Shown: positions 1,302-23,135 of the stretch, one piece after another
Numbering within the stretch: the stretch's first letter is position 1
Layout of the letters: each line of letters opens with the position of its first letter
From: Saccoglossus kowalevskii
Taxonomy: Eukaryota; Hemichordata; Enteropneusta; Harrimaniidae
DNA length: 23,135 bases
Assembly (NCBI RefSeq): GCF_000003605.2
Contig: NW_003133369.1
Location: 66,685 to 89,819, forward strand
Direction of reading: 5' to 3'
Translations under genes and position numbers: made by a program
Notes under the pieces: generated by a model
Databases searched by the model: none
Seen by the model: the letters and a program-made list of their open reading frames with translations, nothing else
What the model was told of the DNA's origin: nothing

Positions 1302-1881
1302 CTGTGTACGTAGTAAAAAATATGGTTTCTGCTATTCAGAAACTTGCAGGTTTCGCTTGTTATTGGGACACTCTTTTACCGATTTTTTTTCCCAGTGCCA
1401 TTTTTTAAAATAAACTTGATCAATACAAAATAAATGAACAGTAATATATAGTAGAGAAAAGCGATGCGATGAACTATCAAAAACGAGTGAGTGTATCCGG
1501 TCATTTGACCGGGCGCGTACACACGATGTTTATTTGCAGGATTAAGCTAAATACAAATGTTATTGTTTAGGCACAGTGGGGCTTAGACGAAGTGCACATT
1601 CCAGGGATTTCCGTTACTTGTAAATTACTTTTTATTTTTTAAAAAGCCGTTTTTCTTGAAATAAAAAAGTGATTTAATAAAAAAACAAGATCGTATATGT
1701 ATAAGTCACCGTTTAATAAAAGAAGAAAAAAATTAAAATCACCACAAAAGTCTACTACATTTTTAATAGTGGGTCAATGTTAATATTGAACTTAGCATGC
1801 CTAATACATGGTCGGTTAATACTACGGTAGCATGCAAAATACTGATTGAACAAAATTCTCCAATTTTTGTTTTTCATGTAG
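1302..1881. other. Non-coding stretch before first visible DDR exon
   Basis: This is AT-rich sequence ending in the polypyrimidine tract and AG (1880-1881) of the first visible DDR exon. A perfect 7-bp inverted repeat, CCGGTCA-tt-TGACCGG, lies at 1497-1512. Nothing else is recognised. It is most likely part of a DDR intron. Confidence 0.5.
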
Positions 1882-2397
1882 ATGATTTACAGTCGTATAG
1901 CATGCCACAAGGTAATGCCATGGATGAGGAACTGGTATTCACCGATAGAATGTACGATGGCGTCAATAACAACGGTATATTGAAATATGGACTCGGACAG
2001 TTAACAGACGGCAAAGTTGCTGATAATTACTACGATCACATGGACCCATATTTTGGGAAAGGTTACCACTGGGTAGGATGGGATCGTCAGGCAACACCGC
2101 AACTGGAAATTACATTCCGCTTTGACTCGGTACGAAACTTCACATCCATGATGTTGCATTGTAACAATCAGTTTGATCAAGGAGTGTCGTTATTTGCATC
2201 GGTGGTTATCTGGTTCAGTGTAAAGGGAGGATATTATTCTACTAATTCGTTGAGATTCACTCCGCAGCGAGATGATACGCATCCAGACGCGAAACACCTT
2301 AATATTGAACTAAATCACAACATTGGCGAAACTGTCAAGTGTCAGTTTGAGTATTATTCTCGCTGGATTATGTTCAGTGAAGTCAGTTTTGAGTCAT
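1882..2397 (+). CDS. DDR: DDR exon: DS-like domain
   Basis: The exon is bounded by ttttcatgtag and t|gtaagt, phase 1 at both ends, and encodes the whole second extracellular domain. DDR signatures are GLGQLTDG, the YHWVGW stretch, LHCNNQF and the closing [11 protein letters not shown]. The sequon NFT (2136-2144) lies where vertebrate DDR2 also has one. The ATG-initiated frame starting at 1797 is an artefact, because the sequence before 1882 is intron. Confidence 0.93.
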
Positions 2398-5300
2398 GTA
2401 AGTACATAAGTTGTCATATTTTTTGGATATTATATTTACCATTTGATGTAAAACCGATTTTAGTATTATTTCTATTAGGACAGTTTTCATATTCTGGTAT
2501 TCTTCATGGCCAACTTTTTAAAAATCAATAAATAAATAAAAATATTTGGTTTCCATACTCAATTTAATAATATACAACACGTAATACAAGAATTCAGTAT
2601 TTAAATTATATACAGAATACAGGACAGTTGTACTGACGCAACATGCATGTTGAATTCTGTAGTAAATGATTAATTATATCCAGTGGCTTTGGCCTTGTTA
2701 TGAATCTTACTGTGTCTCACTAGAACTTGGTGAGTCAGTAGGCCCTGTTTTTGTCATTGAACCTCTGGTAAATATCATGAAGCCAGGCAACCAACACTAT
2801 GCTTGTTAATTACAGACTTTATTGTTGAGTCCCAAGTGATGACAACAACACACGGTAAAAACGCAAAGGCTCATGGGTAGACATTTGTTTGTAAGCAATG
2901 ACACGTTATCGCCATCTGGCGCATGTGCAGGCGACAACTTCCCCGCTTTAATCTTTTTATCACAACCAAGAGAAATACACTCTCATGGTGTGGAAACTGC
3001 AGCGAGAAGTGAAAACAGTTTGAGTTTTCTCTGTGGATGACTACTGCCGGTGGTGTGATACAATCCTATGTAACGCCTGACACAACAGTGTCCATAAATA
3101 AACTGATGATGAATGTTTATAATGTTATATGAATTAAATTATTTCATTTCATTACTTAATTGTTCTCATCCTGTTTCTCTTGAACAGCCTTCATGACAGA
3201 AAATTACACTGTACCCAGTAGTACATCCGTTCCTTATGATGTTGACCCGATGTTTGTACCAGTCAAACCGACCACTCATCCTAGTACTGGTAGACAGAAT
3301 GAAATCATTGCACTCTCATCTACAACTGGTGAGTCATTTTATAAGGGATAAGGGATAAGTAATAAGACACATGTTGATGGTGAATTTTTGGCAATTAAAC
3401 AATTTCAAATTTTTATGTTAATATTTCTACAAGAATGGTATCTAGAATTGTGGAAACAAATTAAAATAAAAGAAATAATTTAGAATTTTCACGTTTAACC
3501 TATTCACCACCAGATTTTATAGCCCCAATTTTGGTGTACTTTTTAGCTTTGCTGTCGACTTTGTCAATCAGAGCTTATCATATGAGTGATTGTGCGCCGT
3601 TGTCGTTGCCGCATTTTTACTTTTTCAATTTTCTTCTTGAAAACTAAAAGCCTGATTCCTTTGATACTTGGTGTATATGTACCTCAGGTAGACCTCTCTT
3701 AGATTTTGCTCATTTCGTGATGATATCTTTAATTCTCTAATTTTGGTGGTAAAAAAGTCAAGTATATTTGAAATATGCTAATAAGCCGATTTCATTTTCT
3801 ACACAAGATTAACTGCAAAAGTATTCAATAGATTTCTCAACCCATGTCTAAGTATATGCAGATTAAAATTTTGGAAAAAATCTGTGAAAAAATTATTTTA
3901 TGAATGGTGACAGAGATGAACTTTGTTGCTCAAGGATCATGGCTGATATTTAGCGTCTTTTCACAGGATCTGCCGAGAAACCAGAAAAAATTGTCAAACC
4001 TGCTGCCAAAGCGAAAACTGGACTGATTGGTGGTCTGGTCTGTCTGGTCATCATCATTGCTATCCTCATTGGTGTAATTCTGATATTGCTATGGCGACAG
4101 AAACAAAACAAATCGTTAATGAAAGGACCGAGGATAGTGGAGCAAGTTCACTGTGATTTGAATTCAGTGCGTATTACGAACAATCAGCTTGGGACACAAC
4201 ACTCGCGTCGCAGTAATCCTACATATGACCAGTTACTGCTACAAGACGACCCTGAGGGTGACGTACCTTGGGTGTCAAAACGATCGTTACCAGAAATACC
4301 ACCAACCTGCGTAGAAAATTCAGGTAATAATTCTCAGAAATCTTGTCTCTTGACAAAGACACATTAACAATATAACCATTTTTGCCGTTGATCCCACAGT
4401 ATTTTTGCAATTTTCTGTATCATGTTATTTGGTTGCGATTGAGTTTTACCTGATTACAGTTGATTTTCTCACGTAAAACAGTGTAGGTGTAAGAAAAAGA
4501 TGGATTTTACATCTTGCATTTCAACGCTTACTACAAAACTACTTTTTGAAATAATCAACCAGTTTCAGGGATTGCTGTAGAAAGCCTACCCGTAATAGTT
4601 GTGGTCAAACTGTTCAAAAAGACATCCATATTCTATGTTTTGTTTTGTTTGTGTGCAGTTGTAGTGTGAGCGCCCTCTATTGGCCACACTGACACCAAAT
4701 TTACTTTGTTTATGAAGACATCTGTGAAATCTTTTCCACCCAGTTCTCTTTACTGCTATGTTTACTTGTGACTGTTTTGAGGTTTTGAGGTGTTCTCTCT
4801 CGTAGCACGATCCGTGTTTCCCTAGGTTTAATAAAGCACTTTCCGTTTCTGCCAAATCTTGATTTCCCTGATGTGTTTAATAATAAATAGCTATTATAAG
4901 AAAAATAAACTAGTGAAAAAAAGAGCTACTGATCGAACTACTACTAAATTTCTACCAGTTCTGATTTACCATGTACAGTTACATGTATACCTGCCAAGTT
5001 TGTGTGTAATTTTTAAGCAACACATAATAACATATATTTGTTAATTTTCCAGGTTGTTCATCAAGAATTTATGCAGAACCTGACATCACTAAATCAACAG
5101 GGCACAGCAGTAAATCCAACTTTCTTCAACAACCGTACGCAGAAACTGACGTCATCCACAAATTCAATATTCAGGGCGTATCTGGTAATAATATTTACTC
5201 TGTGCCGTCAGCAAGTCTGGAAAAGCTCACTAATTTGAATCCTGTCGCACCAGAAATAAACATGGAAGACTTGGAATTCCTGGAAGTTCTTGGAGATGGG

Positions 5301-8300
5301 CAGTTTGGACAGGTGAGATATTTGTGTTAACGTATTCCTTGAAAATTGATATGTATCACAGTGGTTAACCTTTTCACCACCAGTTCATTAAAATTCACAA
5401 AATAGTCCCATTTATAGTCTGCACTTTCCTTCAGAAGATTGGGACAAAAATAGTCAATTTTTTTTAATAAAAACTGAAAATTGATTCAAATTTTGTCTGT
5501 TGGCTTCAAAATTAAGGTTCAGAAATATTGAAGAAAAAGGGCGAAAAAGTTTGATCATGAAAAGGGAGTTTGCAGGTTTGACTTCCATGATTGGCTGCTT
5601 ACTCAGCAGTGGAAAAGTGGGGAAAAAAAATTAGTACACCTGCTCACTTATCTGGCTTGTATATGTAGCTTTTATATATATGTGAGAGACATGAATGACC
5701 AGTTAGAGAAAACATAAATTTGTTTACCTCTACAAGGCTTCTGTACTGCGTACATGTGAGCCTTTACAGCAGGAGAACCTAGTACATGCATAGGGGTTAC
5801 CGTATGTCTAAGTTTACTATGCAATGAAACCACTAGTATACTTGTTACTATTAACGCAACGACCCTGTTCACTTTATTTTTATAAATATTTATAAATTTC
5901 AATAAAAGTTTAATGCAACCAGCCAATCAGTGTATTGCGCAATGACATCATTTGAAAATGTTTCAATGTTATTCCGTTGGCAAATAGGAACATTTCTCAT
6001 TTCAGTTTGAATTGTGTAATGTGTAAAGATTTATAAAAATAACGAGAATGGCTTTCTTGTGTGGATATGATTACCGCATGATTGTAATAATCTTTAATTT
6101 TTTTTTTGTCTCATTTTGTAAGGTTCATTTGTGTGAAATTGAAAATCATGAGTTACTAAATGGAAATGGTGCAAACAAACAAACAAATATACTGGTTGCT
6201 GTCAAGATGCTGAGAAAGGATGCAAACAAAAATGCCAGGTATGTCACCTCATGAGGGTGCTGTTGCTACTGTATTCTGTCCTCCCTGTTGTATCCTCAAC
6301 TCGAAAAAAACATTATTTTTAATAATTTATATTTTACGCTCACTGTATGCAACGTTTGGAACACTTTAAATAATATGTATTCTTGTCTACTTTATATCAT
6401 GTAGATCTGATTTCATGACAGAAATAAAGATAATGTCTCAGTTGCATCATGATAACATAGTAAGACTGCTGGGTAAATGCACCAAGGAAGAGCCTTGGTG
6501 TATGATTGTAGAGTACATGCCAAATGGGGATCTGAATCAGTTCTTGTTTGACAGAGATCTTGATACACAAATCAATGGTGCAGCAAAATCTCAACCAATC
6601 AGGTAATGATGTTATTTATTTATATATTTATTTATTAGAAATGCATATAAACGAAAAAATGCATTTATTATATGTACTTAATCTTTAAAATACTGTAGAA
6701 TACTTTATTTTCGCTTGGAATTAATTTTTGCTATTTTCACTGAAGGAATAAAATTCAGTGAAAATAAAATCCAGCGAATATACCTTTTTTCCTATATTTC
6801 ACATTCAACTCGTCTAAAATCAGTGAAAATAAATTCCATACAAAACACACAAAAAGTCTTTTCAGAGAAAATTAATTCCAGCTAAAATAAAGTATTTTAC
6901 AGTATAACAGATTTTGACCATAGAAACACCTCCAAATTCCAATGCGGCTTTGAATGGATTACTTCATAATTCTGTTGTTTTCAGTGTTAGATAGATAAAA
7001 GCTCTATAATGATTTGAAAATATTTTTTTTTATTGAATTTTTTTTGATAAACTTGAGTTTAATTTTGTAAACATGAATCAAAACATCATGTATGCATGAC
7101 TATGATTCACTATTGGGTGGAATTAGCTTTCTATTATCTGTGAAAACGTCAGGATGTCGCTCAGCTTCAAATATTGTTTGTAAGTTTATATTATATTTGT
7201 TAATTTCTCTTTTGATCAGTTTTGAAGATCTCATATACATCGTGAAGCAAATAACTGATGGTATGCAATACTTGTCATCGTTAAATTTCGTACATCGCGA
7301 CTTAGCGACCAGAAACTGTCTAGTAGGACAACGTTACAGGATACGTATTGCAGACTTTGGAATGAGTAGAAGTCTCTACTCAGCTGACTATTATAAAATT
7401 GAAGGCAAAGCAATTCTACCAATTAGATGGATGGCATGGGAATCAATATTATATGTAAGTAACAATATTTGAAAAAGTTTTTCTCTACTTCGTAGAAAAA
7501 CAGACGGAGTAATTTTTTATAGCTGGAATTGAAAAGACTTTTTGGGTGTTTTGTTTAGAATTTATTTTCACTGATTATTGAAGAGTTGAATGTCAAATAT
7601 AGGAAAAAGGTATATTTTATTTTCACTGAATCATTCCTTCAGCAAAAATGGTGAAAATTACTTCCAAGCGAAAATAAAGTATTCTACAAAACTATATGAA
7701 AATCAGATTTAGCAATTGATGTAGTAAACACGAACCATATGTACTATGTACACATGATGTAAATTGCTCAGAACCCATATTTCATGTTTGCGATTACATG
7801 CATGTGGCAGTCTAAGTCCCTAGGTAAACCAGACCTGGATCTGAACTGATTTTAATTTGCGTCATGGTTACTCATGATAGTGGCTCCTGTTTTTAAATTC
7901 TACCTGAGGGCTGAACACTGAAAAGCAATTGACCCATAACCAGAGTGTGCCAAAGCTATTGACAGAGATTTTTTCACTAACAGATACTAATTTAGGGGTA
8001 AAATTCCTTAAAAACCATTTCGAGTATTATGATAGAAAGACGGTAACACTGTCAAATAAAGACGTAGATATTAAATTAAATTTCCGAGGCCACTTTTATG
8101 TACTTATCAGCCCTTTCATATTGCATATAAAAAAAGGGTTACGGGTGATGACAATAATATTCAACATCTGGCGCAAAAAATGAAATTTTTAGGGATCTAA
8201 TAAATGTTGAAAGATGCCAGTTACTCAAAGAGACTTACAATATTTGTTCCATAAACCAAGTTAAATTTATTTATTTTCAGGGCAAGTTCAGTACCAATAG

Positions 8301-8586
8301 CGATGTCTGGGCATATGGTGTAACACTATGGGAGATTTTCACGTTGGCAAAAGAACAGCCTTATTCAGATTTAACGGACCAGCAAGTCATAGAAAACACG
8401 GGTGAATACTACAGAAATACCGGCGAAGAGGTAATTCTGGATAGACCATCTGCTTGTCCTAAGGATATCTATTGTTATATGAAGCAGTGCTGGAGGCGAG
8501 ACACGGAAACGAGGCCGACATTTGATTATTTGGATGGAATATTCCAACAAAAAAATGATGGATATGAACCAGAATTTGAAGATTAG
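1882..8586 (+). CDS. DDR: Discoidin domain receptor tyrosine kinase, 3' eight coding exons (5' end outside window)
   Basis: Collagen-activated receptor tyrosine kinase of the plasma membrane. Joined exons 1882-2397, 3188-3328, 3967-4323, 5053-5312, 6123-6238, 6405-6602, 7220-7454 and 8281-8586 give 708 residues with every junction in frame (residue numbers below count from codon 1884). The order is: DS-like extracellular domain (1-171); short Ser/Thr/Pro stem; transmembrane helix (about 237-261, ending LLWRQ); juxtamembrane segment with NPTY (302-305), two YAE motifs (Y344, Y366) and IYSVP; kinase from about 408. Catalytic parts are intact: loop GDGQFG, VAVK lysine 452, alpha-C Glu 469, HRDLATRN (554-561), DFG (574-576), and the DDR-type activation loop Y-S-A-D-Y-Y. 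The sequence matches both vertebrate DDR1 and DDR2, as expected of a pre-duplication invertebrate gene. The signal peptide and collagen-binding discoidin domain are not in the window. A short acidic tail follows the kinase. The family call is firm; orthology to one vertebrate copy is not implied. Confidence 0.96.
2398..3187. other. DDR: DDR intron after DS-like exon
   Basis: Phase-1 intron. A possible antisense Gypsy LTR fragment lies at 2804-2948. No extra exon was recognised. Confidence 0.85.
2804..2948 (-). mobile_element. Possible 3' LTR end of a Ty3/Gypsy-type retroelement, antisense in DDR intron
   Basis: Read on the minus strand, a purine-rich tract (AAAGCGGGGAAG) is followed directly by TGTCGCC. 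About 100 bases later come AATAAAGTCTG and a TGTAATTAACA end. This gives a 133-bp TG...CA unit (2804-2936) with short inverted ends (TGT...ACA), a poly(A) signal near its end and a polypurine tract at its upstream edge. These are the parts expected where the internal region of a Gypsy element meets its 3' LTR. No target duplication is visible, which fits a truncated copy. The call rests on architecture only. Confidence 0.33.
3188..3328 (+). CDS. DDR: DDR exon: extracellular stem
   Basis: The acceptor is tctcttgaacag and the donor g|gtgagt, phase 1 to phase 1. It encodes 46 whole codons rich in Thr, Ser and Pro with one NYT sequon. The piece [14 protein letters not shown] resembles the stretch between the DS-like domain and membrane helix of vertebrate DDR2. 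This exon is too short to stand out as an open frame and was found from its splice sites and phase. Confidence 0.88.
3329..3966. other. DDR: DDR intron with dispersed repeat
   Basis: Phase-1 intron. Most of it is occupied by the repeat described at 3499-3762. The remainder is AT-rich with nothing recognised. Confidence 0.8.
3499..3762. repeat. Candidate MITE-like or dispersed repeat in DDR intron
   Basis: The left end TTCACCACCAGATTTTA is matched by an inverted partner near 3738-3758 (RC: TTTACCACCAAAATTA). Inside, 3635-3700 carries ttcttcttgaaaact followed by tgatacttggt, the same unit that is repeated at 12.29-12.62 kb. The element edges are approximate and no target duplication was confirmed. 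Confidence 0.4.
3967..4323 (+). CDS. DDR: DDR exon: transmembrane helix and first juxtamembrane part
   Basis: The acceptor is gtcttttcacag and the donor g|gtaata. A Lys-rich run is followed by about 25 hydrophobic residues (4020-4094) and the stop-transfer WRQKQNK. Further on, SNPTYDQ (4212-4229) is an NPxY motif of the kind that binds Shc-type PTB domains in DDR1. RSLPEIPP near the end parallels a Pro-rich piece in vertebrate DDR2. Confidence 0.93.
4324..5052. other. DDR: DDR intron with CTCF-like motif
   Basis: Phase-1 intron. Apart from the motif at 4669-4686 nothing is recognised. Open frames here on both strands look like chance. Confidence 0.8.
4669..4686 (-). promoter_or_regulatory. 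CTCF-like motif
   Basis: The minus strand reads TGGCCAATAGAGGGCGCT. Compared with the vertebrate CTCF core (TGGCCA, two variable bases, then AGRGGGCGC plus a pyrimidine), the fixed positions are kept and the main departures are in the variable pair. Flanking AGTGTG and CACACT are inverted, so this could instead be part of a small repeat. Binding is an inference. Confidence 0.35.
5053..5312 (+). CDS. DDR: DDR exon: juxtamembrane docking sites and glycine-rich loop
   Basis: The acceptor is ttaattttccag and the donor cag|gtgaga; it enters in phase 1 and leaves in phase 0. Two tyrosine motifs, YAEPDI and YAETDV, lie 22 residues apart; vertebrate DDRs, as I recall them, have one YAEADIV here. NNIYSVP follows, then kinase beta-1 and GDGQFGQ. 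The longer open frame overlapping it (from 5038) is in a different frame and is not used. Confidence 0.92.
5313..6122. other. DDR: DDR intron after glycine-loop exon
   Basis: Phase-0 intron. It holds a possible repeat at its left (5366-5621). The rest is AT-rich and unremarkable. Confidence 0.8.
5366..5621. repeat. Possible second MITE-like repeat sharing the TTCACCACCAG end
   Basis: It begins GGTTAACCTTTTCACCACCAG, close to the start of the repeat at 3499. A loosely inverted partner (CAGCAGTGGAAAAGTGG) lies near 5605-5621. The interiors of the two repeats do not obviously match, so shared ends are the only evidence. Confidence 0.28.
6123..6238 (+). CDS. DDR: DDR exon: ATP-binding lysine
   Basis: A long T run and gtaag precede the exon and g|gtatgt follows. 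It encodes VHLCEIE and then [16 protein letters not shown], nearly the vertebrate DDR sequence, with the catalytic lysine at 6204-6206. A (CAAA)4 run at 6172-6187 codes for part of the variable loop before it. It ends in phase 2. Confidence 0.94.
6172..6187 (+). repeat. (CAAA)4 microsatellite inside a kinase exon
   Basis: Four perfect CAAA units lie in coding sequence upstream of the catalytic lysine. One unit gained or lost would shift the reading frame. Confidence 0.9.
6405..6602 (+). CDS. DDR: DDR exon: alpha-C helix and hinge
   Basis: The acceptor is atcatgtag and the donor ag|gtaatg, phase 2 at both ends. It encodes [13 protein letters not shown] with the salt-bridge glutamate, then LLGKCT, the hinge [16 protein letters not shown] and a DDR-style kinase insert of variable sequence. 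Confidence 0.95.
6603..7219. other. DDR: DDR intron containing left arm of inverted MITE pair
   Basis: Phase-2 intron. It starts with a TTTA-rich low-complexity stretch (about 6613-6638), then the element at 6691-6904, then AT-rich sequence up to the acceptor at 7218-7219. Confidence 0.85.
6691..6904 (+). mobile_element. MITE-like element with TA target duplication, copy 1
   Basis: This 214-bp stretch has long terminal inverted repeats: the left end TACTGTAGAATACTTTATTT matches the reverse complement of the right end over about 36 bp with few changes. TA dinucleotides bound CTGTA...TACAG, as in Tc1/mariner-type elements. The interior repeats CAGTGAAAATAAA and has no coding capacity. A second copy in opposite orientation is at 7501-7688. 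Confidence 0.78.
7220..7454 (+). CDS. DDR: DDR exon: catalytic loop, DFG and activation loop
   Basis: The acceptor is cttttgatcag and the donor tat|gtaagt; it enters in phase 2 and leaves in phase 0. It holds [21 protein letters not shown], the three activation-loop tyrosines and [11 protein letters not shown]. Its length of 235 bp is not a multiple of three, so skipping it would shift the frame as well as remove catalysis. Inverted MITE copies flank it on both sides. Confidence 0.96.
7455..8280. other. DDR: DDR intron containing right arm of inverted MITE pair
   Basis: Phase-0 intron. Copy 2 of the MITE occupies 7501-7688. The rest, including an 84-codon open frame at 7929-8183, has no recognisable coding signal. 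Confidence 0.85.
7501..7688 (-). mobile_element. MITE-like element, copy 2, inverted and diverged
   Basis: Its reverse complement aligns along the length of copy 1, roughly four bases in five by eye, with a few small deletions. Shared blocks include GTAGAATACTTTATTTTCGC, ATACCTTTTTCCTATATTT, ATCAGTGAAAATAAATTC and AAAAAGTCTTTTCA. The end at 7501 is degenerate. It lies in the next intron, so the two copies bracket the 7220-7454 exon. Confidence 0.75.
8281..8586 (+). CDS. DDR: DDR exon: kinase C-lobe and stop
   Basis: The acceptor is tattttcag, phase 0, with TAG at 8584-8586. [30 protein letters not shown] and [10 protein letters not shown] are characteristic of DDR kinases. The protein ends in an acidic tail (YEPEFED) a few residues longer than the end of vertebrate DDR2 as I recall it. 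Confidence 0.95.
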   Translation, partial: GKFSTNSDVWAYGVTLWEIFTLAKEQPYSDLTDQQVIENTGEYYRNTGEEVILDRPSACPKDIYCYMKQCWRRDTETRPTFDYLDGIFQQKNDGYEPEFED

Positions 8587-12251: not shown

Positions 12252-12625
12252 TTATTGTCTGTCGTCGTCGTCTGTAAACAATTCTATTTTTGACTTCTTC
12301 TTGAAAACTACCAGGCCAATTACTTTAAAACTTGATATGTAGGTACATTATATGGTCTTTGCTTCATGACAATATCTTCAATTTTCTATGTTTCGCAAAA
12401 AATGGTATTTTTGACTTGACTTGAAAACTAGCAGCTCAATTGTTTTGATACTTGGTATGTAAGTACTTTGGGTGAACATCTGAGATTTGTCCATTTCTGT
12501 GACGATATTTTCAATTCTTATTTTAGTGTGAATATTTTTGTCTTTTTTGGGGGGGGCGGAATGCATTTTTCGACTTCTTGAAAAACCACCATCTCAATTG
12601 CTTTGATACTTACTTTGTAACAAGT
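12252..12625. repeat. Degenerate tandem repeat, three units of a dispersed family
   Basis: Three successive copies of a unit containing tttttgacttcttcttgaaaacta, a CAATT-rich link, ctttgatacttggtatgtaagtac and a tgacgatattttcaatt tail. The block ttgaaaacta recurs exactly 120 bp apart (12301 and 12421), and a third, more diverged copy starts near 12571. It is preceded by a GTC microsatellite (12261-12272). A related unit lies in the DDR intron at 3635-3735. Confidence 0.7.
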
Positions 12626-12955: not shown

Positions 12956-13749
12956 CTATAATTTGGTTTCTAATGCTAACTTGAAATTATCTTTCACAAT
13001 TTCCATTTTTTGTTCAATTTCTATCATTTTAGCAGTTTTGTTGCATTCCATATATACAGAATGTATTCGTTTATACTCTGCCACAGTCTGTTTGGCATAC
13101 TCCCTAGCTTTTTTATAATTTTTCAGTTGGATGCATGCTTCTGTTAAGTAACCTAAGGACTCTGCAACGCCGTCGTTTTGTGGTTGTTGGGCAAGTACTT
13201 TCCTTCTCAACTCCACTGCTTCTCTGAAATTGACCTTCGCCTTCTGAAGCTTACCGGCACGAAGCATCACTTCTCCCAGCAGATGCATCGTGCTAGCGGT
13301 GGATGTGTGTTCTCCCATTCGTTTTTTTCTAATCTCCAATGATTTTTTAAAATTTACTTCCGCGTTTTCTAAATCTGCGATGCGTGAATAAACTTTAGCT
13401 CTGTTGTTATAAATTAGCGACATATCATGGTGATCCACTCCCATCTTGCGTCTCATTTCATAAGCTTCATCTAACAACTCTAGCGCTTTCTTCGTGTTTC
13501 CTCGCTTACTGTATTCCATGGCTACGTTATTCAACGAAATCACAATATCGTTTGCAGGCTTCTTGTTAAATCGTTTTTTGGTTCGCAGAGATAACTTGAA
13601 ATAATGAAACGCTTTCTCAGTATTGCCCAGTTGGTTGTAGTATAGACCAAGACCGTTCTGCATGCCACCCATAATAGGATGGTCTCCGAATAACTTGCCA
13701 CGCATCGAGAGTGACATCATGTGATATTTTTCACCTTCTGTCAGCTCCC
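12956..13749 (-). CDS. Gene A exon 4: main TPR array and stop
   Basis: The acceptor is ttttctgcag|gggagctg; the stop TAG is at 12956-12958. It encodes about five KLC-like TPRs with repeated ALELLDEAYEMR / SLEIRKK-type helices, ending FKLALETKL. The in-frame ATG at 13765 lies in the intron and is not a start. Confidence 0.92.
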
Positions 13750-16162
13750 CTGCAGAAAAGTACAAACAATTACTGAGTTTAGAAACACAGCTTCATTACA
13801 TGTATTATTTTTGTACTTTATTATATAGGTAATGTATTAGAATTGCCATCGACAACAAATGTGTATCTCACCGACAAATGTATGTACAACACCAAGACTT
13901 GATAGTGTGGATGCAGTGTGTCTGTGGGGTATCATGCCGAGTCTTTTCTGTATATCGTAAGCTTTGTAAAGATACCTGCAATGGGAAAATACCTAGTAAT
14001 ATATCTGTGTGCAGTATTTTAAAGGGCGGTGGTCGTCGCGTCGATCCTGTTCGATATGGGACTCACAGCGACGTATACAACGCATGTAAAAGGCATTGTT
14101 TGTTTACATGATCATACGAACACGCGCTGCGCGACGTCCACGCCCTTTAAACAAAAACTGTAGGACTCATCCAAATTGCTCAGTTTCGCGAACTTTCTGT
14201 AAACATACTCTCACGTGAACCTGTGACTGATTCTACAAGGTTGCTGGCTTTATTAGAAGAATTAAAAAAAATTAAAAATCTCTTGAACGCATTGAATACT
14301 ATACCTCAATGCCTGGCGTTCTTTACCCTGCATATGCCGATTCCATCCAATACTGCTATACACTCGTGCCAATGTATCTTGCATGTCAGTCATTGGTGAT
14401 AATAATTCAGCGGCTTCATTGTAATTATCGCTTGCTTCCTGCCAATTACCTGCAAACAATCAACTTTCTTGGCCAATCATATTCCATGAAATCATATTAT
14501 TGACTAATTCTATTTCCAAAAAAAAATCATAATATGGATCATTCATATTTCTATAAATTATATCCTAAAATTAAATCTTAATAATATAAATTATATGACC
14601 TAACTCCTACATCCCATTTCGGCTACGGTAATTCCAGTTATCAAACAATTCATATTCTTAGATCCTGAAAATATATTTTGTCTGATCACAATAAAAATCA
14701 TAACATTTTTTAAATTACCTCTAATTTGAGTAAGTGCCTGTCCATAACAATGCAACATAACAGCACAATCAGCCGGATCATTCTGCATTCTGGCTGAGTT
14801 CACGCATGCTTCATAGAATTCTACTGCTCCAGCAGATGGTAGAAAATTCATCAAGAGGTACTCGGCATGTTGTGCTACGTTAATCATTACGTGGTAACGT
14901 TCGTCTCCACAATGCATCGCCTCTCGTAAAAACTTTGCAATGTTCTGCATCTCAATGCTTAGTAGTGGAATTGTGCTCTTCGGTTTCCGATCAATGTAAC
15001 TTGACATCTGATGCAGTAAATCGGCGAAGAAGTCACAAAAGCGATCACGGACTAAGTCTTCATCGTGTAAATGTGAGAAATGGTCTCTGATGTACTCACG
15101 AATAAACGGGTGGATGTCGTACCTAAGTGTATCAAACGCATCGCTGATTTCGATTTCAACATTCTCTTTGTCTAATAAAGAACGTTTACATAAAGGATTC
15201 AACACATCCTGTTTAACTGTGGCTGTACTCGGTTTGCCAGTCACGGCAGCCGCTAGACGTGGTCCAAAGGACCCTGGAATATACTGCAATTCAGAGGATT
15301 TCTCTTGCAATATTGGTGACAAAGCATCCATAAATGTGTCAATCACAAGCAGTTTTTTGTCAGAGCATTCATCAAGACTGGACATTCTCTTTTCCAACCT
15401 GGTAGAAAGCTCTGTCGGAGTATATTGTCCATTTCGCAGTGCTGAACCAGCAACAATCAACAATTTGGGCAAAAAACTGCATAAATTAGCAAGTTTAACT
15501 TTATATTTCTGAATGTTTACACCTTCTGCAACTAATTCTAAGAGAGTTTCCGCATCTTCTGGTTGAAGTGGTTTGAGATCCAGCGAGTAGAGAACAATGT
15601 GGTTGACAACTCGAAATTTAAACCTTGTTGTGACTAAAACCTGAACCAAATCTGATGATTCTTCGATTAAATTTAGAATGGAATCAATAAACTCTGTTTT
15701 TGCTGTATTTTCAGCCAATAATATATCTTCTGCATTATCCAATAGTATGAGGTGATGATGTTTGGTGTTATGAACAATGTCCAATATACGTTGAAACGGT
15801 GATGTTAATTGGCTACTCGGAGAACAGCAATCATAGGCGACCGCTGATTTGTCTTTTTGAATATGTGATTGATCTAGTGCATGATACGATTGTTTTGATA
15901 GGGTAAACAGATTAACAAGCTGTGAAATGATTGGTTCAATACTCTTGACATTTCTAACACTAATATCATGTATATGCAAAACAGACTGATCTTCTTTGTA
16001 ACTTTCTTCCATTTTCTTCAATATCTGTTTTGCTAATTCTGTTTTCCCAACCATGGGTTGGCCTGTTATTTGAACGATCTTTTTACCAGATTCCAATGCC
16101 GTCTGCAACTCTGACAGCTCCTTCTCTCGACCAATGAACGTGATATTCTCTTGTGACGTCAT
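12956..16162 (-). CDS. NB-ARC / TPR STAND ATPase, complete four-exon gene (gene A)
   Basis: Exons 16162-14719, 14449-14305, 13975-13872 and 13749-12956 join in frame (phases 1, 2, 1) to 828 residues. The NB-ARC part has Walker A GQPMVGKT (34-41), Walker B LILLDNAED (138-146), a sensor-like VLVTTR (175-180), a degenerate GLPL-type segment (CSFLPKLLIVAG, 228-239), a winged-helix IPGSF (295-299) and IHPFIREY (350-357) where MHD would be. From about residue 480 a row of about 42-residue TPRs of kinesin-light-chain type runs to near the C-terminus. STAND proteins of this layout are nucleotide-driven switches that oligomerise; the TPRs would sense or bind a partner. No N-terminal death, CARD, TIR or other effector domain precedes the ATPase. 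The ATG has A at -3 and an in-frame upstream TAA, supporting the start. Its ligand and output are unknown; an immune role is inferred from family and tandem duplication. Confidence 0.9.
13872..13975 (-). CDS. Gene A exon 3: short TPR exon
   Basis: 104 bp between tcccattgcag and g|gtgaga. It encodes YLYKAYDIQKRLGMIPHR and the start of the next helix. It matches the 104-bp exon of gene B and was identified from splice sites and homology. Confidence 0.9.
13976..14304. other. Gene A intron 2 with TTAA element
   Basis: This 329-bp intron consists largely of the inverted-repeat element at 14023-14146. The matching intron of gene B (21726-22190) lacks it. Confidence 0.85.
14019..14150. mobile_element. 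MITE-like element with TTAA target duplication in gene A intron 2
   Basis: A 124-bp core (14023-14146) with terminal inverted repeats AGGGCGGTGGTCGTCGCG / GCGCGACGTCCACGCCCT is flanked on both sides by TTAA. TTAA duplication is typical of piggyBac-type insertion, though the end sequence is not one I can match to a named family. A longer relative lies at 18551-18805. Confidence 0.68.
14305..14449 (-). CDS. Gene A exon 2: first TPR region
   Basis: 145 bp between tgtttgcag and ag|gtatag. It encodes GNWQEASDNYNEAAELL through KERQALR, a helix-turn-helix TPR pair. The paralogous exon at 22191-22335 has the same length and phases. Confidence 0.9.
14719..16162 (-). CDS. Gene A exon 1: NB-ARC, winged helix and linker
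   Basis: One 1444-bp exon encodes residues 1-481 and ends att-aga-g|gtaatt. Continuing the open frame past 14719 adds non-homologous residues; the paralogue at 22684 stops at the same codon, which confirms the donor. Confidence 0.9.
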
Positions 16163-16500
16163 CTTTGTTCTACGGGATTCAATATACTGTTATTATATTG
16201 TATGGCAATTAGAATACGTTATAATAATTAGTGATCATTCACATGTGATAATTAATGCAGTTCATGGTGATAATTATATCGAAACAGACTATTAGGTATT
16301 CAGTCTACAATTAGAAGAAATAAATGCAGAAAACCATGAAGGGGTGTAAATAAGTGAATGTCAGTAAATATTACCAGGAACGAGGAAACACAATCTCCTG
16401 TGCTGGACAGCACATTCACTATCAAATCACAGTGTTTTTACCTGTTCGAAGCTAAATAATTTGATGCTAATCAACACGGCGCATGTGCAATAACTGGGAC
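16163..16500 (-). promoter_or_regulatory. Gene A 5' flank, possible 5' UTR intron
   Basis: On the minus strand a good donor (ttcgaacag|gtaaaa, exon end at 16442) faces weak acceptors at 16187 (aataacag) and 16170 (cccgtag), so a non-coding first exon and short intron are possible. Two direct copies of GTGATAATTA (16245-16254, 16267-16276) contain GATA-type cores. TGTGCTG-ga-CAGCACA (16399-16414) is a near-perfect palindrome. No TATA box is evident next to the ATG. Confidence 0.25.
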
Positions 16501-18290
16501 TAACCTTTTTAAGAGATGAGTAATTTAGTAATAACCAATTTTGAACTATTTTATACTGGGCATTGTCTATAGGATTCACATGAATTAGCTTGTACAGAAC
16601 CTTCAATTATTAGAAACTATCATGTACGTTTAATTTTGATTTTTTTAATACAACTGTACATTGCGATTTTTCTAATGACTATATACGAGATCGCAGATTA
16701 TCTCCTATATTGGAAAGGGGGGGTTAAGCGAATATATACGCCACAAAACATATTGTTTTTGCAAATTCTATTGCATAATGTTTTTATAACTGTATTGTGT
16801 CTAAATGTTTATATTGATTTGTTGATCTAGTGATTGTATGAAGCCGATGATGTCATTGATTATGATAATTGTACAGACAATATTAATTAATGGTGTATCA
16901 GCACATGTAAGTAAAATGTTGTCCAATGAAATAATCATTAAAAAGTATTGATATTATTGTCCATTATCAAAAAACAAAACAACCTTAGTTTCTATTTTTT
17001 CTGTGACCTTTGACCAAATACATAGCAGGCTCTTGGTAGCAAATGTAGATCATAGGCATACACATGCATCTGTAACACGTTTTATACAACATTTATTTTC
17101 AATTTGTACCTAATAATTTACCCATTCACTCTTAATTGTGAATTTATAAAGTCATTGACCTAAATAATTTTGACACTATAATCAATATTATAGCCACTGT
17201 TTGGGCTGATATATGGTTATTGAAGGTCTCATGCCACTAATTAACCAATTTAAATGCCCAGCAAGAACCAATGAAATTTTTTAAATATTATTTTTCTCAG
17301 GTGCTCCCTGTTTGAGGGCGTAATCACCTGGGTCAGAGGTGCGACCAACATGTGGTCTTTTGTTTACTACTTAGCGGCTGTGTACCTGTGGGTTTATTCT
17401 GTGTGTTAATGTATGTTCTAATCTTGGTGTTTTTCCAGTGATTTCTCTTGGTGCAATCCAAATACAGTAGGTGTGTCTTGTTTACCTGAGATTTGCAAGA
17501 GTTTGAGCTGGCCAACATGTTAGTTTTTTTCATATGGTTGATTACTGGCATGTTGATTTCCCATTTTTGAGCCATATTTTCAACTTTCTTCGTCATTTTC
17601 ATATAGCAATCTCGTCATATGTTAACATTGTCGTCTATGGAAATTCAATTAGTGGTATGAGCCCTTATAGCTCACACGGCTACCCTGGACGCCATCTTGA
17701 ATTTGAAGGGGTCAAAGATTACAGAAAAGGTAGCAAGACTTTTTTTTCGGTGGGTATTTAACTTACATGAGGTCATACACTATTGACACACATTTAGATA
17801 CGAAACAGTGATTATGAACACACTATGCCATAGAATCTTAATACAACAATCTGTGGCGTAGATATAATCTTATTTCTCCTTTCTTCCAGTATAATGGGGG
17901 CAATCTATGACCGCTTCTGGCCCATGACCTCTATTGTGAGGTTAAACGTCAATGAAGCACAATGCACATTTTTCATAACATATACAAACTAGTCTTAACA
18001 AAGTCATACATAATAGGTTTTAATAATTTCCAATAAGTTTTACTATAACCCGGCATCACAATACAAACTAATACCCATTAACAATGCCCAGTGTCAGTAA
18101 AAAACCTAACAATAAATATTAGCGTAAAACCACCCAGACTCTTAGTGTAATACAGTACGTATACGTTACCCACATTGTGTCGTATCCACCCAGTCGTAAC
18201 TGTCACGTAGTCTTGACGTAATGTAACGGTCTTGTAATGCTCGGCGTTACAAAGTGTTAATCGCTAATACTGATCTAGAATCTGTTAATC
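16501..18290. other. Intergenic DNA between the two NB-ARC/TPR genes, left part
   Basis: No coding sequence is supported; short open frames at 16636-16830, 17333-17602 and 17534-17761 have no domain or splice support. A minus-strand CAAGATGGCG (17690-17699), a perfect YY1-type core, is the only distinct motif. 17880-18290 is less AT-rich and richer in CpG than its surroundings. Confidence 0.5.
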
Positions 18291-18317
18291 AAATGTTAAC
18301 AGTAATGCCCACTCTAG

Positions 18318-18462
18318 ACTGCCGTATGTTTACACTATTTTTATGCGGGGAAACTCCAAGGGGAATCCCCTAGTTTGCGCAGTCGCAGTATTAACCCTAA
18401 CATTGAAGATCAACGCTGTTATTCACCACATGAGTACTGGTAACGCCAAAGTGGGGGCGGTT
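18318..18462 (-). promoter_or_regulatory. Candidate promoter: GC box, paired kappaB sites, TATA-like box
   Basis: Read on the minus strand toward gene A, in order: CCGCCCCC (18460-18453); the kappaB motif GGGGATTCCCC (18370-18360); a second kappaB motif GGAGTTTCCC (18357-18348) 13 bp on; CATAAAAATA (18344-18335); and an initiator-like CAGTCT about 25 bases further. Both kappaB motifs fit GGGRNWYYCC exactly. If it drives gene A, a 5' UTR intron of about 2 kb is needed; it might equally be an enhancer. Confidence 0.42.
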
Positions 18463-18550
18463 TACTTCAACGATACAACCGAATGAACGTGTGATTTCTA
18501 GACGATGTGTGCTACGTCAAATAGACATATATTTTTCGCGTGAAGTTTGA

Positions 18551-18805
18551 AGGGCGGTGGTCGTCGCGCAGCGATTTTGATTTTGATGGCGATTTTGATT
18601 GTTGTACAAACTGAGACCAAGTGTAATTAGGTAGTTTCTTTGGTGATTGGAAGGCATCGAAGAAGTCATTGGCGGTAATTAGTTTACGTCTCGTCCAGGT
18701 CAAAACTCGTATTCGTGATTTTCATTAAAAAAACGCATTGCATTGTGGGAAAAGCAATGTTTATCAACACATGTTGCACATTCGCGGCGCGACGACCGCC
18801 GCCCT
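18551..18805. mobile_element. Longer MITE-like element, same end family as 14023-14146
   Basis: The left end AGGGCGGTGGTCGTCGCGC pairs with the right end GCGCGACGACCGCCGCCCT. The right-hand interior (aaaagcaatgtttatcaacacatg) resembles that of the gene A intron copy (aaaaggcattgtttgtttacatg). Target duplication is unclear here. A 63-codon minus-strand frame (18512-18703) overlaps it and is not convincing. Confidence 0.6.
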
Positions 18806-20224
18806 GTATAGTGCTTTTATTGTTGGCTCTTGTATTGTCCCTCACATGTAGACGCCTGGAATAACTGTATTTTGCACAAATGTCCTAAAAAAATAAAAAA
18901 ATAAACAAACTATTGCTGGAAAAATGCCACACGAAACAACATTTTTGGAGCAAACAAAGGTCCACCACTGAGCGAATAATTTAATGACAGATGATGACTT
19001 TTGTTTTGCGTTGGCGATGTGTTCAATTGTGCAACGACGTTCAGCTGTTTGTGTAAACGCATATCATTCGTGTAAGACGTTGATGAATAAAACTTGCAGT
19101 ATATTTGAAAGAATTGACCAGCGGACAACATACTGAACATAACAACAGTCGAAAAATGGCGGCCATATATATAAAGAACAGCTTTATTTACATAATCTAA
19201 AAATAGCATAGTTACAACTTACATAGAGGTTGTTATTGTCAAAATCAAATGTCATAGTAAAATACATTACAAAATTCGACAATGCTATATTTAATAGCCC
19301 AATAAATTCGATTGAAACTTCTAGATACAGGATTGCATACCAACAAATGTTTTTTTTTTTAAATTCACGAATATTAAGTCTCACGCCGTAAAATTTGCAC
19401 GTTACAGCAGGTTACAGACATGAAAGAACAAAGGCCACGTTCATATACCACGGTTCAAACACTTGAAAGCAACTAATGCAAACTTTACAAAAATGGAAAT
19501 ATAAATACATAAAATGTAATAGAAAACTCATTAATACTCTATTCGAAACATAACAACCACAGTTTAAAAACCATAAGCAAACATGAAACATGTGCACTTT
19601 CTATTCTCATTTAAAGATGATATAAGCACCGAACATTACTTTCCCTTTTTGAAAACATACACTACTTGATCTGGGTTTACGGAAGAAGCATGGGATTATC
19701 ATTGCGTGTATACAAATCCGACATAGAGAACGTGCTAAAGCGACTGGCAGTGACGCTATCCCGTGGGTACCCCTAGAAATACTCATACAATAGGAATTTG
19801 TGGGGTGGGGTCAGACAGATATCATTTCGATGTTTACTTAAAAAACAAATAATCAAATATAACAACTATGTAATGAATACTGACAACAAGAGTTCCATTC
19901 TGTTTTAAAAAAACAAACATAACAAACACTTCAGTAAAATTAATAGCTTACAAGAAGTTCTTTACTCTACGTAAATATATGGAAAAAATGAAATGTGAGA
20001 GTAACCAACAATATTACTAACATGCAAGACATTTAAAAACATTTTAATTAAAATAGATATAGGTGATATAAGAATCTTCATGAACAATAATTTAAATCTA
20101 GCTAAGTAACTACTTTCTACAAATATACAACGCAGTGTAAAATCTGCAAACCTTTCAAGTTCAAGACAACAAGCACAAACCAACCATTAAAACCCCAGGT
20201 TTTAACATATCAATTTCATATTAT
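18806..20224. other. Intergenic DNA downstream of gene B
   Basis: AT-rich sequence with no supported gene; the open frames of 60-100 codons on the minus strand show no domain, codon pattern or splice support. AAAATGGCGGCC (19153-19164) is a YY1-type core followed by an ATATATA run. Confidence 0.5.
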
Positions 20225-20230
20225 TTTAAT
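20225..20230 (-). terminator. Possible poly(A) signal (ATTAAA) of gene B
   Basis: Minus-strand ATTAAA about 250 bases past the gene B stop. Other variants occur further on, so this is only one candidate. Confidence 0.25.
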
Positions 20231-20418
20231 GTGTCAATGTATTCTGAACCAAAGCATTTGATTATCTATGTAGCAACTGATATTTAAATAGTTGGTATAC
20301 TCTTTCGACCCTTTCTTAGGTCATTATCCCAGATTGGAAGGAAGGGTATTACACCTAAAAAAATCTTTCTAACATCACGTATTACATACAAGGTACACAG
20401 CTACACTTTACAAAAGTA

Positions 20419-20475
20419 TTAACCATATATTAACCATATAACCATTACAATATAGTATTAACCATTATATTATGG
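20419..20475. repeat. Short TTAACCATATA-type tandem repeat
   Basis: Two adjacent TTAACCATATA units and two looser copies (ataaccatta, attaaccatta) lie just past the gene B stop, in its presumed 3' UTR. Confidence 0.6.
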
Positions 20476-20482
20476 TATGTTC

Positions 20483-21273
20483 CTACTCTGTTTCAAACAC
20501 CAACTTGAATTTCTCTTTCACAGTTTCTATCTTTTGATCAATCTCTAGCATTTTATCAATTTTATTCCCTTCCCCATACACATCATGCAACCTTTGATAC
20601 TCCGTCACAGTTTGCCGGGCATACTCCCTAGCTTCCCTGTATTTTTTCATTTGAATGCATGATTCTGTCAAGCAATTCAGGGACTCAGCAACACCACCAT
20701 TTTCTGGCTCGTTAGCAAGCACTTTTCTTCTAAACTCTAGTGCGTTACTGAACATCTTTTTTGCTTCCTGAAATTTACCAGCACGAAGCATAACTTTTCC
20801 CAACATGTTCATTGTATCACCCACAGAAGTGTGCTTTCCCATTAGTTTCTGTCGAATCTCCAATGTTTTTTTATAGTATAGCTCTGCATTCTCTAAATCT
20901 GAGCCTCTGGCATAGACTTTGGCTTTGGTGTTGTATATTAGCGCCATATCAGGGTGATCCATACCCATCTTACACCTCATCTCATAAGCTTCGTCTAACA
21001 ACTCCAACGCTTTCTCCATGTCTTGTCGCTTGCTGTACTCCAAGGCTACATTGGTTAATGAATATATGATATCATTAGCAGGCTTCTTGTTGAACCGCTT
21101 CTTCGTTCGCAAAGATAACTTGAAATAATGAAACGCTTTCTCACTGTTTCCAACTTTGTTATAGTAAATACCCAGATTGTTCTGCAAGCCGCCCATAATG
21201 GGATGATCTCCTAACAAGTCACCACGCATTGATCGTGATAAATCGTGATATTTTTTCGCTTCAGCCAGCTCCC
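20483..21273 (-). CDS. Gene B exon 4: main TPR array and stop
   Basis: The acceptor is atttctatag|gggagctg. About 80 of 262 aligned residues differ from gene A, but one TPR block (EKAFHYFKLSLRTKKR and on to PANDI) is unchanged in protein while carrying roughly eight silent changes. The upstream in-frame ATG at 21334 is intronic. Confidence 0.92.
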
Positions 21274-23135
21274 CTATAGAAATATACAGATCAAAAGACA
21301 ATTCAATGTTTTTCCTATTATAAGTGCACTCCAATTTACCTTAATAACCTGCTCTATAAAACATGCATCTCTATCAAAAGAACAATTTTTCGTATTGATT
21401 TGCATCGCAACTACAGACATTTTAATAAAAAATATGAAATCTTAATATACTCATCTGACATCACTGGGACAAATGTGAATCTGTACAGATTCTGAGTCCT
21501 AGTGTGAACATTTTGCCTTGATTTTGTAGACATGCAGGTCATTTTATAACCATATACTTCAAACCATAATCATCATTATATTAGAAAGATTACAAATAAA
21601 TCTTTGTATAATATAGCTTACCGATAGCTGTGTTTATAACACCTAGGCATGCTGCTGTAGATGAAGTATCTCTATGTGGTATCAAACCTAAATTCTTCTG
21701 TATATCATAGGCTTTGTAGAAATAACTGTAATGATACAAGACAACATTTTATTTCATAAAAAAACATTTCACATTACTACAACGGAATTGAACATAGTGG
21801 CAGAAGAACATTTTGGGCGTTTCCCGTTGTATTTTATGTGATTTAAAAGACACAAGGTCTGTAGAGGCTCAAGTACTAGTGATAATAATGTCCTGATTGT
21901 GAGTAGGAATAATACAGTTATTTTGTATATGAATAATTCTTGAACATTTTTTTGTGGTGGACTTTCATTGTTTTTTCAGCACGAACGGTTAACGTTCCAT
22001 TTATTCGTTCTTGTTTTGGTAATTTGTCTATAACAGGGTTCATTAAAGATAATTTTTGAATTTTAAATAATCTACAGAGCTTGTAGAGGAATGTAATGCA
22101 AGAGCGTTTACAACTAGTAATGATATCATTACTATGAACTGACAATGAAATATATCCACAAATTAGCATAGCAAACCGTGAACATCGTACCTGAGTGCTT
22201 CCCGTTCTTTACCAAGCAAATGCAGATTCCATCCAATACTTGTGTAAAGTCTTGCCAGTTTATCTTGCTTGTTTGTCATTGGGGACAATAATTCAGCGGC
22301 TTCTTTATAAACATTTCTTGCTTTCTGCCAGTTACCTGTCAAATGTCAAGATTAATCTCAGTTATGATCGCAAAATACACACTCTGCACTAATCTAATCT
22401 GAAGTTCATATTTTGAAATCAATTTTATTCCAAACTAGTATATTTAGGCCAGTCTGAAAATCACAATGTATGTTCACCAAAATCCTTATTTTGAACAACC
22501 ATATTCTTCAAAACACCTACTTTTGACCATTCAAAGAATTATTCCCTTGGCCAATGAAATTCCAATTTGAACACCAATCTATAAATATCTTACAAGATAA
22601 TTTGAGTTCATGATATACAAATGTAGATCGACCCAAAACCTGGTGTTACATACAGCAATCTATAGTAGATCACTATGCCTTACCCCTAATTTGATTAAGT
22701 GCCTGTCCATAACAATGCAGCATAACAGCACAATCAGCCGGGTCATTCTGCATTCTGGCTGAGTTCACGCATGCTTCATAGAATTCCACTGCTCCAGCAG
22801 ATGGTAGAAAATTCATCAAGAGGTACTCGGCATGTTGTGCTACGTTAATCATTACGTGGTAACGTTCGTCCCCACAATGCATTGCCTCTCGTAAAAACTT
22901 TGCAATGTTCTGCATCTCAATGCTTAGTAGTGGAATTGTGCTTTTTGGTTTCCGATCAATATAACTTGACATCTGATGCAGTAATTCAGCGAAAAAGTCA
23001 CAAAAGCGATCACGGACTAAGTCTTCATCGTGTAAATGTGAGAAATGGTCTCTGATGTACTCACGAATAAATGGGTGGATGTCGTACCTAAGTTTATCAA
23101 ACGCATCGCTGATTTCGAATTCAACGCTCTCTTTA
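20483..23135 (-). CDS. NB-ARC / TPR STAND ATPase paralogue (gene B), 5' part outside window
   Basis: Exons 23135-22684 (partial), 22335-22191, 21725-21622 and 21273-20483 join in frame to 496 visible residues, equivalent to 332-828 of gene A. Internal exons have the same lengths (145 and 104 bp) and phases (1, 2, 1) as gene A. The visible part starts in the winged-helix region (RYDIHPFIREYIRDHF), passes through the linker and then the KLC-like TPR array, ending FKLVFETE with TAG at 20483-20485. Walker motifs would lie beyond the right edge. The first 150 codons are almost the same as in gene A, while the TPR exons differ at about 30% or more of residues. Introns are unrelated in sequence. No frame break is seen. 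The role is presumably like gene A with altered TPR specificity; this is an inference. Confidence 0.9.
21274..21621. other. Gene B intron 3
   Basis: 348 bp against 122 bp in gene A, with no visible similarity. Nothing else is recognised. Confidence 0.8.
21622..21725 (-). CDS. Gene B exon 3: short TPR exon
   Basis: 104 bp between tatcattacag and g|gtaagc. It encodes YFYKAYDIQKNLGLIPHR and a short Ala-rich helix start. About 13 of 35 residues differ from gene A. Confidence 0.9.
21726..22190. other. Gene B intron 2
   Basis: 465 bp with no TTAA element. It contains the perfect 20-bp palindrome at 22115-22134. An 83-codon minus-strand frame (21918-22169) appears to be chance. Confidence 0.8.
22115..22134. 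repeat. Perfect 20-bp palindrome
   Basis: TAGTAATGATATCATTACTA equals its own reverse complement. It contains two inverted TAAT cores, the arrangement favoured by dimeric homeodomain factors. Function is unknown. Confidence 0.6.
22191..22335 (-). CDS. Gene B exon 2: first TPR region
   Basis: 145 bp between catttgacag and ag|gtacga. It encodes GNWQKARNVYKEAAELL through KEREALR, 14 of about 49 residues different from gene A. The acceptor and donor match gene A codon for codon. Confidence 0.9.
22336..22683. other. Gene B intron 1
   Basis: 348 bp of AT-rich sequence, unlike the 269-bp gene A intron 1. Nothing recognised. Confidence 0.8.
22684..23135 (-). CDS. Gene B exon 1 (partial): winged helix and linker
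   Basis: It ends att-agg-g|gtaagg at the same codon as gene A. By direct comparison about 18 of 451 bases differ from gene A, giving 5 changes in about 150 residues. Differences are denser near the window edge. Confidence 0.92.

Follow-up and report, generated by a model that had tools for sequence, protein, structure and literature searches.

The window analysed here, a stretch of 23,135 nucleotides from the hemichordate Saccoglossus kowalevskii (contig NW_003133369.1 of assembly GCF_000003605.2, positions 66,685 to 89,819), contains two genes, A and B, that lie in tandem on the minus strand and are transcribed in the same direction, with B upstream. They appear to be an old tandem pair of animal NB-ARC/TPR genes (STAND-type, NLR-like), and both look functional. 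The readable end of the first exon is nearly identical in the two genes, while their exons 2–4 are strongly diverged, and the data support different ages of common descent for exon 1 and for exons 2–4.

The exon models of both genes were drawn from sequence alone. The four exons of gene A are bounded by canonical splice sites, with phases 1, 2, 1, and the spliced protein of 828 amino acids is free of internal stops. Exons 2 and 3 of gene B have the same lengths and phases as those of A; the 496 codons compared between the two genes align without gaps, and A is one residue longer at its end. Sequence flanking the window to the left and to the right is given as N in the record, and exon 1 of gene B is readable for the last 452 of about 1444 bases. 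The features of the pair are listed below, dS and dN being silent and replacement changes per site by Nei–Gojobori count (the dS and dN intervals quoted later are bootstraps over codons).

Gene A exon 1, 14719..16162, minus strand: 1444 bases with an open frame; donor GTAATTTA at 14718; the exon phases fit.
Content of gene A exon 1: P-loop nucleoside triphosphatase (NTPase) of the NB-ARC/ATPase_2 kind (residues 8–252), then a helical part, then the start of the first detected TPR.
Gene A stretch near-identical to B, 14715..15169, minus strand: 96.04% over 455 bases, gapless; dS 0.164.
Gene A exon 2, 14305..14449, minus strand: splice sites present, phases 1/2; 145 bases, the same length as in B.
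Gene A exon 3, 13872..13975, minus strand: 104 bases, the same length as in B.
Gene A exon 4, 12956..13749, minus strand: main TPR array (TPR_12, E 1.6e-36); stop TAG.
Gene B exon 1, 3′ part only, 22684..23135, minus strand: 452 in-frame bases; donor GTAAGGCA; the exon is cut by the window end.
Gene B stretch near-identical to A, 22680..23134, minus strand: BLAST match.
Gene B exon 2, 22191..22335, minus strand: 145 bases; protein identity to A 69.4%; dS 0.664.
Gene B exon 3, 21622..21725, minus strand: 104 bases; protein identity to A 64.7%; dS 0.989.
Gene B exon 4, 20483..21273, minus strand: main TPR array; stop TAG; protein identity to A 69.2%; dS 1.186.

Gene A encodes an NB-ARC-type NTPase, and a C-terminal TPR region is present in both A and B. 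Among Pfam profiles the NTPase is matched best by ATPase_2 (36.8 bits, cut-off 33.2), with NB-ARC (29.5 bits, cut-off 23.5), AAA_16 and AAA_22 likewise above their cut-offs; GQPMVGKT, picked by eye, is presumably the Walker A motif. By sequence, protein A finds its best match among solved structures in a kinesin light chain TPR region (E 7.5e-16), and the open frame containing exon 4 of gene B matches TPR_12 with an E value of 4.2e-28. When an N-terminal effector domain such as CARD or Death was looked for within exon 1 of gene A, the stop-to-stop frame gave only 9 further residues ahead of the start. The predicted fold of this exon has a mean pLDDT (predicted local distance difference test score) of 37.5, and scans against defence-gene and NCBI families returned weak matches for exon 1 and generic TPR matches for exon 4.

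BLAST aligned the two exon-1 ends over 455 bases without a gap and with 18 mismatches; the last base of the window, 23135, lies outside this match and differs from A by eye. The 150 whole codons of the exon-1 stretch hold 13 silent and 5 replacement differences (N/S, I/F, T/K, D/E and T/N). These counts agree with an earlier account made from the letters of the window (the sequence-only reading), which had given about 18 differences, about 96% identity and 5 amino-acid changes, and whose protein identities of about 71, 63 and 69% for exons 2, 3 and 4 come close to the measured values. In the exon-1 stretch 13 of 88.2 silent sites have changed (dS interval 0.081–0.274), as against 120.8 of 212.3 in exons 2–4 (dS 1.066, interval 0.787–1.53). 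The two intervals do not overlap, and a dS near 1, being near saturation, is to be read as 'old' and not as a date. Replacement changes affect 5 of 361.8 sites in the exon-1 stretch (dN 0.014, interval 0.003–0.028), as compared with a dN of 0.185 (0.152–0.221) in exons 2–4; protein identity is 96.7% versus 68.8%, and exon 4 is 75% identical between the genes at the DNA level.

Codons that specify the same residue in both genes (Met and Trp excluded) differ in 12 of 138 cases in the exon-1 stretch and in 85 of 226 in exons 2–4 (Fisher p 2e-10), and four-fold sites differ in 6 of 46 and 34 of 81 cases, respectively. Chance is ruled out, since in 20,000 codon shuffles the silent differences of a 150-codon window never fell to 13 (minimum 18.2). 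The sequence-only reading had put the silent difference in unchanged TPR blocks at about 10%, which was wrong: in the five protein-identical blocks of at least eight residues within exons 2–4, 23 of 38 silent sites (60%) have changed, and the contrast with exon 1 is therefore stronger than had been supposed. The dN/dS ratio comes to 0.085 for the exon-1 stretch and to 0.17 (0.185/1.066) for exons 2–4. As a pairwise average, exons 2–4 are thus under purifying selection and show nothing that points to adaptive diversification of the TPR part; the suggestion that the sensor arrays diversify, if meant in an adaptive sense, is not supported.

As had been proposed, silent divergence along the genes is not uniform, and similarity ends at the exon-1 donor. 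Within the exon-1 stretch silent change is even, with 3, 5 and 4 differing codons per 46 in three blocks of 50 codons, and in the next block beyond the edge it rises at once to 10 of 32. A two-rate change-point model places the edge at alignment base 449 (support interval 433–470), the exon ending at base 451; on silent changes only, the edge falls at codon 149 (138–166), the exon ending at codon 150. Beyond the donor, the similarity of A and B runs for 4 bases only (GTAA). None of the three intron pairs showed a clear gain in alignment over mononucleotide shuffles (200 each; p 0.055, 0.36 and 0.14), intron 1 being borderline with a score of 28 and a shuffle maximum of 31. As a control, intron 1 was mutated at 14.7%, the silent level of exon 1, and the five resulting copies scored 308–379. 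Intron 1 accordingly does not share the young history of the neighbouring exon, because the natural pair fails to align while the mutated controls align strongly. For the 5′ edge there are two weak hints: three of the five replacement differences lie within the first 14 of the 150 codons, and the G+C content at third codon positions (GC3) of gene A exon 1 is 0.33 ahead of the stretch (15170–16162) as compared with 0.42 within it. In 60-codon steps GC3 ranges from 0.25 to 0.45 along this exon, without a clear step at the start of the stretch.

The near-identical stretch had been taken for the ATPase part of the genes. This assignment does not hold, for the stretch corresponds to residues 332–481 of gene A, downstream of the region matched by the ATPase/NB-ARC profiles (8–252), and the window does not reach the ATPase part of gene B. 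Alone, the stretch has no Pfam match; together with exon 2 it gives a TPR_12 match at residues 466–540 (residues 28–102 of a piece starting at residue 439 of A). The exon-1 edge, at codon 482, lies inside this first detected TPR, part of which has consequently been homogenised too. Of the proposal that conversion homogenises a switch module, the exchange of DNA and its edge at the donor stand, but the module is not supported. The homogenised unit would be best described as the exon as DNA and not as an ATPase module.

Because exon 1 and exons 2–4 differ in age, DNA was exchanged, by conversion or another form of recombination, after A and B had diverged; the silent divergence accumulated since is about 15% of that in exons 2–4. 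To judge from the pattern of divergence, this exchange was probably ectopic gene conversion along the exon-1 block of homology, although our preference for it is a measured one. In old tandem duplicates, introns and TPR exons would have diverged until silent sites were near saturation, and the long first exon would have been copied between the genes, in either direction and perhaps more than once. With introns that have lost their homology, each exchange would run out at the exon-1 splice donor, where homologous DNA stops. Conversion bounded in this way, above all if it happened repeatedly, would put the edge at the donor, and selection on protein modules is not needed to explain an edge as sharp as the exon. 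We infer that conversion took place, that it recurred and that it covered the 5′ part of exon 1 beyond the readable bases.

Several points weigh against this explanation. The edge found at the exon end is the 3′ one, and the 5′ edge lies beyond the 452 readable bases of the first exon of B (about 1444 in full); an identical 3′ edge could be given by a crossover or a partial duplication. Nothing would fix the end of a one-off conversion tract, or of a crossover, at a particular place in the exon, so that the exact edge is natural only with repeated events or with a tract that reaches the end of homology. Had exon 1 once been as diverged as exon 4 is now, it would have been a poor substrate for homologous exchange, and conversion must for this reason have begun early. 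According to a survey of corals, gene conversion is very rare among their tandem duplicates (PMC10236652), and it may therefore be no general rule in invertebrates.

Alternatively, gene B may be a chimera with the head of A and the old tail of B, formed when unequal crossover or partial duplication joined a second copy of A's 5′ half, comprising exon 1 and its flank, to a gene whose diverged tail was older, or when the tail of B was replaced from a paralogue now lost or unreadable. The same 3′ pattern would be expected, and the tandem arrangement of A and B in the same orientation is the layout in which unequal crossover would make chimeras. A single break, however, would have to fall by chance no more than about 19 bases from the exon end (433–470 around 451), and a break inside intron 1 would leave a piece of the A intron, none of which is clearly seen. 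The flank that should have been duplicated could sit in sequence that reads N; no copy of the 5′ flank of A (16163–20480) was found in the 73,135 of 179,150 scaffold bases compared, 22,885 of which are N. We regard such a chimera as less likely than conversion, albeit as its most serious competitor. An error of assembly, in which the last 452 bases are an allele or a stray read assembly of A exon 1 misjoined to intron 1 of B, seems considerably less plausible. The near-identical stretch does extend right up to the N sequence and, if this represents a scaffold gap, mis-joins typically occur at contig ends. But frame, phase-1 donor and continuing TPR repeat are all intact over the join, the 4 intron bases in common there are in our judgement too few for an overlap join, and we consider 13 silent and 5 replacement differences, or about 15% silent divergence, to be far beyond what alleles could plausibly show. 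Moreover, a protein search, the counts of which are lower bounds, found no second copy of A or B elsewhere in the readable assembly. The least credible proposal is that there was no exchange at all, and that a single duplication was followed by constraint on silent sites or by a low mutation rate in exon 1. The higher conservation of the protein in the exon-1 stretch agrees with it, but silent divergence jumps at the exon edge, protein-identical blocks of exons 2–4 have changed at 23 of 38 silent sites, and no reason was found in composition or in an overlapping frame. Codon bias or an antisense gene is an unlikely cause of the low silent change, by the similar GC3 of the exon-1 stretch (A 0.42, B 0.41) and of exons 2–4 (A 0.41, B 0.42) and by the stops that interrupt all three antisense frames across the stretch in both genes.

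The proposed ectopic conversion of one exon has a close parallel in the NLR-B30.2 genes of zebrafish; by analogy with that system, A and B would add an animal NB-ARC/TPR pair to the known cases of this pattern. Between groups 3a and 3b, the zebrafish study (PMC4852459, Open Biol. 2016) gives a dS of 0.216 and a dN of 0.11 for the NACHT exon, as compared with 1.069 and 0.4 for the B30.2 exon, and explains the contrast between Fisna-NACHT and B30.2 exons by gene conversion. Both systems belong to the STAND/NLR family and combine low dS in a large NTPase exon, for A and B in its readable 3′ end, with a C-terminal exon of high dS. The values for A and B (dS/dN 0.164/0.014 and 1.066/0.185) nearly reproduce the zebrafish dS values, those for exon 1 of A and B coming from its last 150 codons. 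The large contrast in dS between exons of one gene pair is found here too; positive selection in the recognition module, which is reported for zebrafish B30.2, is not seen in the pairwise average of exons 2–4. The zebrafish family also differs in size (nearly 400 genes versus two here), in its domains (NACHT and B30.2 versus NB-ARC and TPR) and in that its B30.2 exon was additionally converted across groups 1, 2a and 3a.

Concerted evolution between duplicates, with part-gene examples such as the opsins, is treated in a review (PMC3924837). As described there, the primate red and green opsins resemble A and B in being a tandem pair in which conversion acts on one portion of the gene and another portion remains diverged, but in the opsins it is the introns that are evened out, one exon being kept apart by selection, whereas in A and B part of an exon has been homogenised and it is the introns that have drifted apart. 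Genes with an NB-ARC domain and C-terminal TPR occur in corals, Trichoplax and other animals (PMC10236652, PMC6321704, PMC2246300), with many tandem duplicates in corals (PMC10236652); the accessible parts of these reports describe no homogenisation restricted to an exon. Our literature search found no published report of exon homogenisation in an NB-ARC/TPR pair, which is no proof of absence.

The pair may serve as a clean animal NB-ARC/TPR example of two histories in one gene that switch at a splice site. An edge as sharp as an exon, it suggests, need not mean selection on protein modules, for here it cuts a TPR and lies where the DNA ceases to be alignable. Trees built on exon 1 alone would misdate such families. 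It is also conceivable, though rather doubtful, that recurrent conversion keeps exon 1 alike because the two proteins co-assemble through it, leaving the TPR tails free for different ligands; A and B would then represent a minimal, two-locus version of the zebrafish situation.

As far as readable sequence shows, A and B would make up a family of two genes. Paralogues were sought by a protein search of the genome (572 Mb, 4830 contigs), the counts of which are lower bounds. It gave at least 24 matches, of which 8 are the exons of A and B, none of the remaining 16 exceeding 30% identity; within the readable sequence no third close copy able to act as donor was found. The check on paralogues that had been called for was thus made in this form, and it left A and B as the only close members within those bounds. 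Two distant NB-ARC-like stretches lie about 19 kb apart on another contig (L031 and L032, 27% and 25% identity to A); L031 has an open frame of 438 residues and was rejected, at 27% identity, as too distant an outgroup for polarising silent changes. Of the stretches round TPR matches of a domain search, L011–L015 did not match protein A at E 1e-3 and L016–L019 matched it at 21–29% identity; all were rejected as close family. In viral contigs gene A exon 1 as query drew 10 pattern matches, and in prokaryote genomes the A/B alignment drew 94; not one of these was confirmed.

Among the other features of the window, intron 2 of gene A contains a small element rich in G+C (14019–14151). Its ends look inverted by eye but were not picked up by a repeat search at 16 bases or more, and 45 of its bases recur at 82% in the right-hand part of the scaffold. 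Between the genes, 17224–17665 is a young high-copy repeat of about 440 bases, with at least 39 other genome matches at 95–100% identity (40 of 424 candidates scored); by eye, its ends resemble inverted repeats about 18 bases long, such as non-autonomous DNA transposons have. A diverged repeat at 12276–12608 recurs several times, both within the window and elsewhere on its scaffold. On the plus strand, 1797–8586 carries exons of a discoidin-domain receptor tyrosine kinase, a gene in keeping with an animal source. They give a match to the DDR1-2 DS-like domain (E 6e-54) and include two for the kinase, one of which (7092–7472) is flanked by an inverted pair of a 160–170-base repeat (6694–6864 and 7530–7688) whose copies are 85% alike.

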